Assembly: GCF_019037185.1 (NCBI RefSeq)
Contig: NZ_JAHHXM010000030.1
Coordinates: 1-36,809, forward strand
Length of the DNA stretch: 36,809 nt
Direction: 5' to 3'
Source of the DNA: Oceanobacillus caeni
GTDB taxonomy: Bacteria > Bacillota > Bacilli > Bacillales > Amphibacillaceae
Under the pieces are notes generated by a model. It saw only the letters and a program-made list of their open reading frames with translations, was not told the DNA's origin and did not search any database. The translations under genes were made by a program, and so were the position numbers. Numbering within the stretch: the first letter of the stretch is position 1; each line of letters begins with the position of its first letter. Positions 10,359 through 25,769 of this stretch are shown one piece after another.

Positions 10359-11006
10359 ATGGAATTTATTCAACCAATCTTAGAAATTCTGTTTATTAAT
10401 ATCCTTCTAAGCGGAGATAATGCCCTCGTCATTGCGATGGCTAGTCGAAATCTTCCCAAAGAACTTCAAGGGAGAGCCATTCAATGGGGTACATTAGGTG
10501 CCATTTCTTTAAGGACATTATTTGTTTTCTTAATGATACACTTATTGGAGATGCCATTTATTCAATTGATTGGTGGAATACTTTTACTTTTTATTGCCTA
10601 TAAACTAATGGTAGATTCACATGAAACCGATCAAATAAAAAGCGGAAATTCCTTGCAGGAGGCCATCTCGATTATCATTTTTGTAGATGTTATCATGAGT
10701 TTAGATAATGTACTAGCTATTGCTGCAATTGCTGACAGTAATTTACTACTAATTATTGCTGGAATTATTCTAAGCATTCCTATCATACTAACAGCGAGCG
10801 AACTTATTTTAAAGCTTATTCAAAAGTTCCCCATTGTAGTATTCATTGGAGCTGCCCTACTCGCTTGGACTGGCGGAGAAATGATTATAAAAGAAGAAAT
10901 GGTACGGGCCATCTTTCAAACCAATAACGTCCTTTCCCTTTTCTTTTTAATTGGTCTTACGGTCATCGTGATCATCATAGGGGCAATCAAGCGAAAACAA
11001 GTCTAA
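10359..11006 (+). CDS. TerC-family integral membrane protein (YjbE-like)
   Basis: The 215-residue protein is mostly hydrophobic, with about seven membrane segments. It carries the two family signatures with buried acidic residues: LLSGDNALVIA (16-26) and DVIMSLDNVLAIAA (about 109-122). TerC proteins of Bacillus (YjbE, YkoY, YceF types) are linked to manganese export or metallation of secreted proteins at the membrane. The start is ATG at 10359 after a strong AAGGGGGG site. It is transcribed alone towards the prenyl synthase gene, with a shared hairpin between them. The exact substrate is inferred only from the family. Confidence 0.9.
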   Translation: MEFIQPILEILFINILLSGDNALVIAMASRNLPKELQGRAIQWGTLGAISLRTLFVFLMIHLLEMPFIQLIGGILLLFIAYKLMVDSHETDQIKSGNSLQEAISIIIFVDVIMSLDNVLAIAAIADSNLLLIIAGIILSIPIILTASELILKLIQKFPIVVFIGAALLAWTGGEMIIKEEMVRAIFQTNNVLSLFFLIGLTVIVIIIGAIKRKQV

Positions 11007-11007
11007 A

Positions 11008-11044
11008 CAAAATCCACTCCTCTGTTCTAAAGGGGTGGATTTCT
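11008..11044. terminator. Hairpin between converging TerC and prenyl synthase genes
   Basis: An 11-bp stem with one G-U pair (AAATCCACTCC at 11010-11020, pairing at 11033-11043). The minus strand continues into TTTTGTTTAG, so it best serves the prenyl synthase-like gene; it may also stop TerC transcripts. Confidence 0.65.
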
Positions 11045-11051
11045 TAGTCCT

Positions 11052-13421
11052 TTAATTATCCCTATTCACCACATAACTTAAGAAATGCTTTAAAAAAGCT
11101 TTATTTCCAGGAATTTCTTGTAAAGCATCTAATCCTAAACAATAATGTTCCCACATAGCTCTTTTTGCTTCTTCCTTACCAAGAACGGTAACAAATGTTG
11201 ATTTATTATTTTTTACATCAAGGTTCGTTGGTTTACCAAGTGATATGGTATTTCCTTGATGGTCTAATAAGTCATCTTTAACTTGAAAAGCAATGCCAGT
11301 ATGATAAGCAAATTTTTTCAATGCTTTCTTTTCTTCTTCGTCTACCCCAGCAAGTATAGCTGGCATGATGAGTGAGGCCTCAAATCCTATACCCGTTTTA
11401 TAAAAACACATCTTATTTAATTGTTCTAACGATATTTTATCTTTTTCCTCTAAATCCATTGCCTGACCCCTACACATATCTGTTATAACACCAGACGAAT
11501 AATGAATCATTTCGAGCACTTTTTCCGAATTAAAACGTTGTAACGTTGTCTGTTCTTCTACAGCCTTTTGAGTCAAAAAAAGCCCGGATAATTCTGCGGT
11601 AGCAACATTATATACTTCATGCAACGTCTGCTTCCCTCGCCTAAGAGAGGCATTATCTTGGGAAGGTAAATCATCAAAAATTAAAGATGCCGTGTGCAAA
11701 TACTCCAATGACCGTAACAATGGAAAAATATCCGCTTCATCCATATGGTAGCAATGAACCGCCATCATCCAAGTTATAATAGGTCTTAACCTTTTACCAC
11801 CATCGCCTAAACTGTAATTTACCGCGTCCAGAATATGATCATTCGATAAAAATACTTGTTTATGAGATTTTAGTTGTAAGCAATTATTGATTTTTTCACG
11901 AATGCTTCGCGTCATTTCGATAAAATCTTCTCGCTCTTTCCGCTCTTTCCGAAAATGATTAATCATATGATCGCGTAAAAGTTTATCAAAGAAATCAACA
12001 TCATCGGCTTTTTTAACCATTTTTTGTATAAGACCATTAAAAGACTGAATTTCAGAAGTAAGGATGCCCATTATTTCTTCGTATTTTTGAGTCCCCCATT
12101 TTCTCTTAAACCGTTTTAACCCATTAATGGCACGATTTAAAATCACTTCGCATGTTTTTGGATCAGACTGGTAAACCTCGTGGATTAAAAAGGAAATGAC
12201 TGTCCAATACAATCCAAATGGATTTATAAGATCTCCACGCGTACGATAATATTTCAAATAATACGTATATGGGGTAACGGATCCCGTCTTTTCATCTTCA
12301 AACATATCGGCAAAGTCATCGGCTAATTGATTATATAATCCATAATAAAAGGTCCGGCTTTCAAACCCTTCATCCTCTGGGGCACTAATAATCGAACGTA
12401 CAATAAGACGGGAAGCCGCAGATTTTAAAATAACTGGAATGTAAATCTCCTCATTTGTAAGTTTTTGATTTTCCATAGATTTATTACGATCCACTTCCTG
12501 TGATTGAAAAAAAACGTAGGAATCTTTATAAAAAACTTCGGTTGTTTCAAGTCGTTGATGGGACTTTATATATTCGAATGCATCTCGAAGTTCTGCATGG
12601 ACAAACTGAATGAATTCCTTATTCTCCCCACTCCAATCATCCAAATCCGGTACAACACCAGTAGTTAAAGCGGAACGGATTAAATTGGTATAACGGATTT
12701 TTTCATTTGGAGACAAAATATTGGAATCTAGAAGGTCATCGATAAAAGGGTAAGTAAGGCCATAAGAATAGCCGAGTCTTATAGCCTCATCCAGTCTTAC
12801 CGATTTGTCCTTAGGTGAAATTTCATCATCCATTTCTTCTAAAACATGCATAACGACACCAACAATTATTTTGATTAGCTTTCGTTGGGCCTCATCTGAA
12901 TTTAAGCCTTCTGGAATTTGATCTCGTACTGTCTTTAATTTATCCGTCAACCAAATAAAACTGGATTCTACCCCTTCATTTTGTGACCAGCGAAATAACC
13001 CAGCAAGGTTATATGATTCCATTTTCGTTTCTGTAAGGGAGTTTACTAGATGGTTTTTCAGTTGATTAACAGATTTTTGTATACGATTTTGTGTTTTTGT
13101 AGAATCAAGTGCTTTACCCAAATCACGCATATAAATATAGGAAATACTCCGGTCGAGATAATTTTCTAGCTTACCAGTATGATGTAGATATTTTATATAT
13201 CGATGGTAATCCCTTGAATAACGTTCTCTTTTTCTATTGAAAAAAAGGGACGGAAATGAATGGACATGATTCTTTTTCCATAAATGGATATCGTTCGTTA
13301 ATTGATTTATATATGTCTTTTCTCTAAGCTGTTCAGAAAGCGTTTCGAAATATGCATGAGCCTTCTCTTCCATCTGTCGATAACATGCATCTGTGTCAAT
13401 CAATAATTCCGATGTCATCAT
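11052..13421 (-). CDS. Two-domain polyprenyl synthetase-like protein
   Basis: The C-terminal part (about 505-789) is a trans-isoprenyl diphosphate synthase. It has GGKRLRP (541-547), a first Asp-rich motif DDLPSQD (583-589) followed by ASLRRGK, and a second DDLLD (716-720) in AFQVKDDLLDHQG. It would condense IPP with an allylic diphosphate. The N-terminal 500 residues are all-helical and unusual: they contain DDLLD (228-232) in TYPFIDDLLDSN and DDFAD (368-372) in NQLADDFADMFEDEKTG, spaced 140 residues apart against 133 in the C-terminal domain. That suggests a second, diverged prenyltransferase or terpene synthase fold. Standard enzymes are about 290-330 residues, so this is more than twice the usual size. 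It is monocistronic, with RBS GTAGGG. The product is unknown. Confidence 0.88.
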   Translation of the reverse strand: MMTSELLIDTDACYRQMEEKAHAYFETLSEQLREKTYINQLTNDIHLWKKNHVHSFPSLFFNRKRERYSRDYHRYIKYLHHTGKLENYLDRSISYIYMRDLGKALDSTKTQNRIQKSVNQLKNHLVNSLTETKMESYNLAGLFRWSQNEGVESSFIWLTDKLKTVRDQIPEGLNSDEAQRKLIKIIVGVVMHVLEEMDDEISPKDKSVRLDEAIRLGYSYGLTYPFIDDLLDSNILSPNEKIRYTNLIRSALTTGVVPDLDDWSGENKEFIQFVHAELRDAFEYIKSHQRLETTEVFYKDSYVFFQSQEVDRNKSMENQKLTNEEIYIPVILKSAASRLIVRSIISAPEDEGFESRTFYYGLYNQLADDFADMFEDEKTGSVTPYTYYLKYYRTRGDLINPFGLYWTVISFLIHEVYQSDPKTCEVILNRAINGLKRFKRKWGTQKYEEIMGILTSEIQSFNGLIQKMVKKADDVDFFDKLLRDHMINHFRKERKEREDFIEMTRSIREKINNCLQLKSHKQVFLSNDHILDAVNYSLGDGGKRLRPIITWMMAVHCYHMDEADIFPLLRSLEYLHTASLIFDDLPSQDNASLRRGKQTLHEVYNVATAELSGLFLTQKAVEEQTTLQRFNSEKVLEMIHYSSGVITDMCRGQAMDLEEKDKISLEQLNKMCFYKTGIGFEASLIMPAILAGVDEEEKKALKKFAYHTGIAFQVKDDLLDHQGNTISLGKPTNLDVKNNKSTFVTVLGKEEAKRAMWEHYCLGLDALQEIPGNKAFLKHFLSYVVNRDN

Positions 13422-13597
13422 TTTGATCCCTACTTCTTTGAATAGTTATTTAAATATATTTTACTATACTTCAAACAATACCAATTAATAACAAGCTAGA
13501 GTTATGCTAATCGTATAATGTTAGTTTTTTGTAGGATAAAAAATGTTGGATTCCCCAACGAACCTTTTTGAATTTTTTTCGATTTATGTTCACCATC

Positions 13598-13746
13598 ATA
13601 ATACGATGAGTGACCGTCCAAGTTTAACTTAGTCCATAATAACCGCTCTCATGGACATTTGCTTGAAAAATGAATGAGACTTTGGCCGTGATATCCGCTG
13701 CCACGGACATTTGCCTGTAAAATGAACGAGACTTTGGCCGTGATTC
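13598..13746. repeat. Tandem 52-bp hairpin repeats, locus 1
   Basis: Two units, 13643-13694 and 13695-13746, agree at 44 of 52 bases. A third, decayed unit precedes them (13598-13642, best at ACTTAGTCCATAATAACCGCT). Each unit contains a 41-nt inverted structure: C(A)CGGACA at 13650/13702 and TGGCCGTG ending 13690/13742. The same family with the same 52-bp period occurs at 32733-32854. The rest of the 461-nt gap 13422-13882 holds AT-rich DNA, an inverted repeat at 13821-13842 and the RBS of the HD gene. Confidence 0.8.
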
Positions 13747-13820
13747 ATTAATTACAAAAAATCAATCCATTATTTTTACAAATCCACCAATAGCCATTGA
13801 AATTCGCCGAAAATCGTGGT

Positions 13821-13842
13821 AATGTATTTAACAATATACATT
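13821..13842 (+). promoter_or_regulatory. Possible operator before the HD hydrolase gene
   Basis: AATGTAT (13821-13827) and ATACATT (13836-13842) form a 7-bp inverted repeat with an 8-nt gap, 41 nt before the start codon. ATGTAT...ATACAT resembles NsrR-type half sites but with wider spacing, so the regulator is not assigned. Confidence 0.3.
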
Positions 13843-13882
13843 TCTGAGAAACGTAAATTATTAGATAAAAAGGGGGAGTATC

Positions 13883-14422
13883 ATGATACGAAATGTGACG
13901 TTAGAAACGCTTTATATCCACCCTATTGTTCAAAAATATGTTGGTCGTTCTGGAATGGCACATGCAGTTTCTGTTGCTGAAAAAGCCTTTGAAATTGCTC
14001 GTGAATCCGGTGTAAACCCAGATCTCGCTACGAAAGCTGGCTTACTTCACGATATCGGTCATTACGAATGGTATCAAGACGGTGAGTGGGATTATCAATT
14101 GTATAAGGAAAATGATATTCATGCCATAAAAGGTGCTGCTCGTGCTCATAAACTTCTCGTACGTTGTGGAGAAGACCTTCAAAATGCGAAAGCCATTGCC
14201 CTGGCGGTACTCCTTCACACAGACTCGTATTTGCCAGAAGGGGAATTACAACTTACCCCTCTACAAAAAGTGGTCGCACTGGCCGATGAAGCAGATGAAG
14301 AACCTGGTGGCAATCACCATTACCGCCAAATTGATCACGACACTGCGCTCCGTCGAATTCAAATTCTAGATAAAAAAATCAATAAATATATAGCATCTCT
14401 TCGTTTCGAACAAACAAGTTAA
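13883..14422 (+). CDS. HD-domain phosphohydrolase
   Basis: The 179-residue protein has the HD metal-binding set: H27 (MAHAVSVAEKA), H56-D57 in LLHDIGH and D135 in ALADEAD. HD proteins of this size are metal-dependent phosphohydrolases, usually acting on nucleotides. The LLHDIGHYEWYQDGEWDY stretch suggests a predicted-hydrolase subfamily rather than a RelA-type enzyme. The start is ATG at 13883 after GGGGGAG with a short spacer. No membrane segment is present. It is followed by the DUF1292 gene on the same strand after 132 nt that include a separate ribosome binding site. The substrate is unknown. Confidence 0.82.
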   Translation: MIRNVTLETLYIHPIVQKYVGRSGMAHAVSVAEKAFEIARESGVNPDLATKAGLLHDIGHYEWYQDGEWDYQLYKENDIHAIKGAARAHKLLVRCGEDLQNAKAIALAVLLHTDSYLPEGELQLTPLQKVVALADEADEEPGGNHHYRQIDHDTALRRIQILDKKINKYIASLRFEQTS

Positions 14423-24975: not shown

Positions 24976-25769
24976 TTATCTCTTCTCTACAGTAATGCTT
25001 CCATTATCTGTTTTTAATTTAACTAAATTTTCGCCATTTCCAATGACTGTATCATAGTTACTTTTGCCGAAAACCAAAATTTTACCATTATCTGTGTTAA
25101 TATTAAACGTTGTATTGGTCGGTTCTTTTTCTGTATATACATTAATCGCTCCATTATCTGTTTCCAAATCTATCATTTGATCCAAAGAATCTGTTTTAAA
25201 AACAATTTTACCATTATCTGTATTACCTGAAATTTCACCTACGACGTTATCCAAAAGAATAGTACCATTGTCTGCCTCAGCAGAAAGATTCAAACTTTCT
25301 ATATTTCTTAAATTTATTTCCCCATTGTCGGTTTCTACATAAACATCATTCGCTTTTAAATTTTTCAATTTAACAAGACCATTTTCCGTTTCAGCTTTTA
25401 TCGCTTCATACACATTCTGAGGTAGATAGATGGTTAATGTTAATGTTTTAAAAGCGTTAAACCAGTCAAATGTAAACCATGAAAAAAATCGTTTGCTTTT
25501 AGTTCGACCATTAACGTATCATTCTTCACCTTTGCTTCAAGCTTATCATGTTTATTTTTCCCCGAAACTGCTATTTCTGCTGACTTACTATCAGATGGAA
25601 AAATCTCTACCGCAGCATTGTGTGCTTTGACATGAACACCAACAAAGTTCTCCGATACTTCTAATTGTTCTGGACCTGATCCATTTCTTGAAAAAAATTG
25701 AGTAATACTAACCGCCATAACTCCGATTAACACAATCGCAATAACCGTTACTTTTTTCAAATCAATCAA
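24976..25769 (-). pseudogene. Frameshifted DUF4097 family cell-envelope protein
   Basis: Two frames together encode one DUF4097 protein. The upstream frame (25769 to 25440) has a TTG start, a membrane anchor (VTVIAIVLIGVMAVSITQFF) and the first beta-rich part ending KANDFFHGL. The downstream frame continues, after translation of the gap, as SWFTFDWFNAFKTLTLTIYL, PQNVYEAIKAETENG, then six repeats of the xTDNG-hydrophobic type to TVEKR. The break maps to a run of seven T at 25482-25488 (minus strand); one more T would restore a frame of about 264 residues. The family forms beta-solenoid-like sheets of unknown function. A homopolymer sequencing error, phase variation or real inactivation are all possible. 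Confidence 0.85.

Follow-up and report, generated by a model that had tools for sequence, protein, structure and literature searches.

The window analysed here, the whole stretch of 36,809 nucleotides of the Oceanobacillus caeni contig NZ_JAHHXM010000030.1 (assembly GCF_019037185.1), carries on the minus strand a gene at positions 11052-13421, found in the list of open reading frames (ORFs) and in the translation as a single open frame of 789 codons. The 789-aa product is a two-domain protein, in which an N-terminal domain with a predicted terpenoid-synthase fold precedes a C-terminal trans-isoprenyl diphosphate synthase; this layout rests on the match to the Pfam family PF00348, on structure models and on relatives organized in the same way. 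The ORF had been pointed out, with no strand given, in a preliminary description made from the sequence alone. Its extent is confirmed, as are the positions of the Asp-rich motifs reported there, DDLLD at residue 228, DDFAD at 368, DDLPSQD at 583 and DDLLD at 716, spaced by 140 residues in the first pair and 133 in the second. All features of the gene given below lie on the minus strand.

The C-terminal domain spans residues 523-789 (11055-11855). Residues 529-753 match the polyprenyl synthetase family PF00348 at 2.1e-54 (184.8 bits, the curated cut-off being 27). The best NCBIfam model is that of farnesyl diphosphate (FPP) synthase (FPPsyn, 203 bits, under its cut-off of 275), followed by CrtE. 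Conservation was assessed in 54 two-domain proteins, namely the window protein, 43 of the 44 relatives found by a contig scan, and 10 further proteins; the remaining relative, L067, was excluded from alignments, its frame ending 66 codons past the start of the match. In the first Asp motif of the domain, DDLPSQD (residues 583-589, 11655-11675), D583, D584 and D589 are invariant, and so are R594, R595, K675, T676 and, in the second motif, DDLLD (residues 716-720, 11262-11276), D716, D717 and D720. The RRG pattern is found in 53 of the 54 proteins. Judged by PF00348, both Asp motifs and RRG, the domain is a trans-isoprenyl diphosphate synthase, as had been proposed. Ala578 (11688-11690), five residues ahead of the first Asp motif, occupies the chain-length position; it is Ala in 54/54 proteins, and Tyr in the IspA-type enzyme of the same genome, within HTYSLIHDDLPAMD. 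In mutational work on bacterial FPP synthases a small residue at this position allows growth beyond C15, and the product of the C-terminal domain is therefore predicted to be C20 or longer. The genome encodes a separate FPP synthase (407 bits, over the cut-off), and another protein which, in the 226 residues read, is best matched by heptaprenyl synthase component II, at 415 bits for a cut-off of 457. The two-domain protein is therefore not the sole prenyl synthase of the genome.

The N-terminal domain, residues 1-500 (11922-13421), is predicted to be all-alpha. Its model (pLDDT 87.2, pTM 0.87) finds structure matches among proteins of the terpenoid-synthase fold, with Z scores to be taken with caution, as for any helical model. 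Model and matches agree in making this fold very probable, and a fold prediction for this region was the very check suggested in the preliminary description, where the first 500 residues had been left unassigned. In the full-length model (pLDDT 86.4) the two domains are joined by one long helix, residues 478-512 (11886-11990). Directly before it lies the string DDVDFFD (residues 473-479, 11985-12005), which is well conserved, with consensus KADDVDFFDKLLRD; V475, F477, D479 and K480 are invariant in the 54 orthologues.

Both N-terminal Asp motifs are conserved. The first, DDLLD (residues 228-232, 12726-12740), is located at the end of a predicted helix (224-232), and D228 and D229 never vary; 46 orthologues have DDLLD, six DDVLD, one DDILD and one DDLLG. 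The class I first motif DDxxD is thus found in 53/54 N-terminal domains, the exception being L066, a Desulfitobacteriaceae metagenome-assembled genome, which hosts the only copy with DDLLG for DDxLD and also features YWLI in place of YPFI. The second motif, DDFADMFED (residues 368-376, 12294-12320), fits the pattern DD(F/L)xDxxxD in 54/54 domains. Lys333 (12423-12425) is a candidate diphosphate-binding residue, plausibly the analogue of the KT motif in prenyl synthases, and is likewise present in all 54. Overall, 127 positions are invariant, including D228, D229, K333, R338, R342, Q365, D368, D369, D372 and D376. Two DDxxD motifs in 500 residues are only mildly unlikely by themselves, 0.17 being expected at the composition of the domain and two or more occurring with a probability of 0.013 (20,000 shuffles). 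It is their conservation that is strong evidence for the N-terminal motifs.

Sequence families say little about the N-terminal domain. In the window protein it reaches no Pfam or NCBIfam family over its cut-off, and the whole protein has no Pfam terpene-synthase match at E up to 10. A Pfam scan of 44 N-terminal domains alone was run at E up to 1, and is given here for the best 25 of 38 families. Among these, PF00348 matches 25/44 domains (best E 7e-6) and the next family 5/44, and the terpene synthase family PF19086 is found in one (E 0.016). PF00348 was also found in three of six further N-terminal domains (E 0.0004 to 0.036). For the window domain alone the PF00348 match has an E of 0.0015, behind DUF445 at 0.00084, and aligns residues 281-379 to profile positions 94-197. 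By arithmetic assuming no gaps, D368 falls at about profile position 186, approximately the same as D716 of the C-terminal domain, where residues 529-753 cover positions 3-223. Of the two kinds of family proposed for comparison in the preliminary description, isoprenyl synthases and class I terpene synthases, the former are thus weakly matched and the latter, at the threshold given for the window protein, are not. The NCBIfam hexaprenyl synthase model NF040936 is met in 5/44 domains (best 0.0013), as often as an unrelated gliding model, and PHROGs gives three matches to the window domain, the best at 0.05. Sequence searches of solved structures returned nothing credible with the N-terminal profile or with the two stand-alone proteins described below. 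The NSE/DTE second motif fits 0/54 domains in its strict form; a relaxed form fits one, that of the window, at residue 261, which is not the second motif.

Two-domain proteins are widespread in Bacillota. N-terminal matches were found in 42 of 98 genomes, that of O. caeni included, and in 19 of 71 genera; in the 40 of these 42 genomes that were checked (all except G093 and G031) the C-terminal domain is present in every case. Of the 59 candidate stretches in the contig scan 44 were confirmed, and the titles of these are all Bacillales except for the Desulfitobacteriaceae genome mentioned above. Among the relatives found that carry a name, the closest is Oceanobacillus sp. Castelsardo, at 85% identity. 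In a sample of the phylum, 11 of 398 genomes matched at E 0.01: eight are full-length, again with O. caeni included, one is a distant relative, and two, L087 (E 0.003) and L088 (E 0.006), were dropped as chance matches; the long ORFs of L087 look, by eye, like spore-germination proteins. In one locus (L013:632-3072) the two domains are found as adjacent ORFs of 525 and 282 aa with the break between the domains, which reflects either a true two-gene arrangement or a mistake in the draft sequence. Plasmid records hold no match to the N-terminal domain or to the stand-alone protein L086, and none of 54 pattern matches in viral contigs was confirmed.

Proteins resembling the N-terminal domain occur also alone. 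L086 (396 aa read, with the frame open at the end of the locus) and L105 (419 aa) belong to a single genus, also in this phylum, and share 48% identity. The N-terminal profile retrieves L086 at 4.4e-10, and L086 as a query retrieves two-domain proteins, by their N-terminal domains wherever a range is given; neither stand-alone protein is retrieved at 1e-3 when the N- or C-terminal domain of the window is used as a single query. In a comparison of profiles the N-terminal domain and the stand-alone proteins align over 187 columns with a probability of 95.6 (E 1.3e-8), the two motifs of one falling on those of the other, and none of 40 column shuffles approaches the score. The stand-alone proteins have D-N-x-x-D as first motif and DDLQDVxED, aligned with DDFADMFED, as second. 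When they are added to the 54, 22 invariant positions are left, among which D228, K333, Q365, D368, D369, D372 and D376. Pfam finds no families in either, and L086 has no NCBIfam match. Both are about 400 aa long and have the look of terpene synthases that have escaped recognition. Around L105, inspection by eye of the ORFs of at least 120 aa, over some 6 kb in each direction, showed no prenyl synthase.

Because such stand-alone relatives exist, the N-terminal domain is a separate family, which makes fusion likelier than tandem duplication. Of the two origins put forward in the preliminary description, an internal duplication and a fused terpene synthase, the latter is the likeliest since the domain is predicted to have the all-alpha terpenoid-synthase fold. 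Internal duplication was tried and rejected: the N- and C-terminal profiles align with a probability of 0.8 over 24 columns, a score equalled by 4/40 column shuffles. With the stand-alone proteins added to the N-terminal profile, or used by themselves, the score is reached by 2/40 shuffles. Domains of the N-terminal type and prenyl synthases may thus be remotely related.

The best single reading, to which we give a probability of about 0.6, is that of a coupled bifunctional terpene synthase. The C-terminal domain would condense isopentenyl diphosphate (IPP) and an allylic diphosphate into an all-trans prenyl diphosphate with at least 20 carbons, which would then move on to the protein's own N-terminal domain. 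Here the conserved Asp motifs (D228/D229/D232 and D368/D372/D376) would hold the Mg2+ cluster by which the diphosphate is ionised, leaving a cation that would be cyclised or quenched to give a terpene. What has been computed is the identity of the C-terminal domain with its intact motifs, the predicted fold of the N-terminal one and the fact that the motifs of both pairs are conserved; from this we infer N-terminal catalysis, which is likely, the use of Mg2+, the substrate length and the coupling of the two sites.

The alternative that survives best, although improbable, is that the N-terminal domain is a non-catalytic or allosteric partner fused in cis, setting the chain length in the way of the small subunits in heteromeric prenyl synthases. 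Such subunits usually lose their Asp motifs, whereas here both motifs and K333 are kept across 54 orthologues; moreover, proteins of the N-terminal type are found alone, one of them with no prenyl synthase visible in the surroundings described above. In favour of this alternative, the domain shares a chain with a prenyl synthase and has a weak likeness to PF00348, and PMC7839719 describes small subunits, HexA among them, as possible regulators of chain length. Still less likely is that the domain joins two prenyl diphosphates head-to-head, in the manner of squalene and phytoene synthases, instead of cyclising one. The squalene synthase 3vjb ranks eighth among the Foldseek matches of the N-terminal model, and the second motif in its context, NQLADDFADMFEDxxxG, resembles the second motif of these enzymes. 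Yet their family, PF00494, has no match in the window protein at E up to 10, and none in the N-terminal domains among the 25 of 38 families considered; in a PF00494 scan of relatives one protein of the two-domain family matched, in its C-terminal domain (G003, E 5e-4). That the N-terminal domain is a second chain-elongating synthase derived from tandem duplication is the most doubtful of the three since the IPP-site patterns GKRxRP and RRG fit 0/54 domains, and the N-C profile probability below 1 percent and the stand-alone relatives also speak against it, despite the predicted superfamily fold, the two DDxxD motifs and an N-C profile score that, with the stand-alone proteins added, only those 2/40 shuffles match.

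The surroundings of the gene are not conserved. In 45 loci (the window and 44 relatives, the latter with flanks of up to 6 kb) no other gene family is found beside the gene in more than nine, in line with the earlier remark that biosynthetic neighbours are lacking. Elsewhere the genome encodes a YtpB-type gene, and it also has a squalene-hopene-type cyclase and one PF00494 gene, so that its chemistry probably includes terpene hydrocarbons in any case. Ten sigma-factor patterns were searched upstream, and each was found in at most one of the 45 loci; a sigma-70 scan of positions 10900-13900 gave 10 sites, against 12.5 in shuffles. A promoter of the extracytoplasmic function type, GTAAC-N16/17-CGTATA, is located 77-157 bases upstream in 11 of 52 upstream regions, all Paenibacillus by title (L050, L051, L052, L055, L060, L062, L063, L064, L067, L070 and L071). 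The mean in simple base shuffles is 0.02, for a pattern picked after viewing related sequences. It was not found upstream of the window gene. The pattern hints at an envelope-stress control of the gene in Paenibacillus. At some distance, in the region 24976-25769 (minus strand), two short ORFs of 145 and 109 aa are adjacent; this gene may be frameshifted, because the proteins with which the first ORF clusters, in four relatives, are about 275 aa long.

Among known systems, bacterial FPP and geranylgeranyl diphosphate synthases of the IspA/CrtE type share PF00348, DDLPSQD, RRG, KT and DDLLD with the C-terminal domain, which differs from them in being 34% identical to the IspA-type enzyme of the genome, in scoring under the FPPsyn cut-off and in having Ala for Tyr. 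As to the N-terminal domain, class IB terpene synthases (YtpB/BalTS, DUF2600, PF10776) are characterized by the motifs DYLDNLxD and DY(F,L,W)IDxxED, according to section 5.2 of PMC7839719 and to PMC11234867. Patterns that we relaxed from these motifs fit 54/54 and 52/54 N-terminal domains, whereas the strict ones fit 0/54 each, compared with 20/20 and 12/20 DUF2600 proteins; the motifs are 140 residues apart in the window protein and 161-162 in 20 DUF2600 proteins. PF10776 has no match in the window protein at E up to 10. Homology to DUF2600 was rejected: in profile alignments the first motif is in register, and the second too once the stand-alone proteins are added, but the score is reached by 15/40 shuffles, and by 11/40 with these proteins. 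We keep the likeness of motifs and refuse membership in class IB, because the profile scores do not rise above those of shuffled columns.

The non-canonical classes ID, IE and IF are established terpene synthases whose fold was found by structure (PMC11234867), and the same source indicates that their fold is hidden from sequence searches and that they can sit outside gene clusters, as is the case here. Class ID has the motifs D(N/D), ND and RxxKD. RxxKD is found in 3/54 N-terminal domains and is absent from that of the window protein, in which residue 228 begins a D(N/D) pair. The comparison with classes IE and IF (SalTPS, NpsTPS) extends to their published description. The words 'fused', 'fusion' and 'bifunctional' led, in the accessible text of PMC11234867, to no fusion of these classes to a prenyl synthase. 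No paper was found on the two-domain family or on a bacterial fusion of the same order, which is weak evidence, as subscription journals mostly fall outside the search.

The closest parallel is offered by the fungal chimeric terpene synthases (PTTS), such as the fusicoccadiene synthase PaFS, in which an N-terminal synthase is followed by a C-terminal prenyltransferase, and which are termed 'unique to fungi' in PMC8307374. The window protein similarly has a predicted alpha-fold synthase domain and a prenyl synthase, in this order and in one chain; it differs in being bacterial and in having DD(F/L)xDxxxD, not NSE, as second N-terminal motif. The linker between the PaFS domains is flexible and about 70 residues long (PMC8190136), whereas in the window protein one long predicted helix connects the domains. 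On the best reading the O. caeni protein would be a bacterial counterpart of the fungal chimeras, probably a convergent one. Chances are roughly even that it is a self-contained chimera, in which a new class of terpene synthase, unrecognisable by sequence, and set against IE and IF by description alone, is permanently linked to a C20-C30 prenyl synthase of its own, and which produces, in many Bacillota and away from any gene cluster, a terpene not yet described. If so, Oceanobacillus, Neobacillus, Sporosarcina and Paenibacillus would host a hidden terpene synthase of which Pfam labels the prenyl synthase half only, and the chimeric design would have had a second origin, in bacteria, with the same domain order as in fungi and an unrelated-looking cyclase domain.
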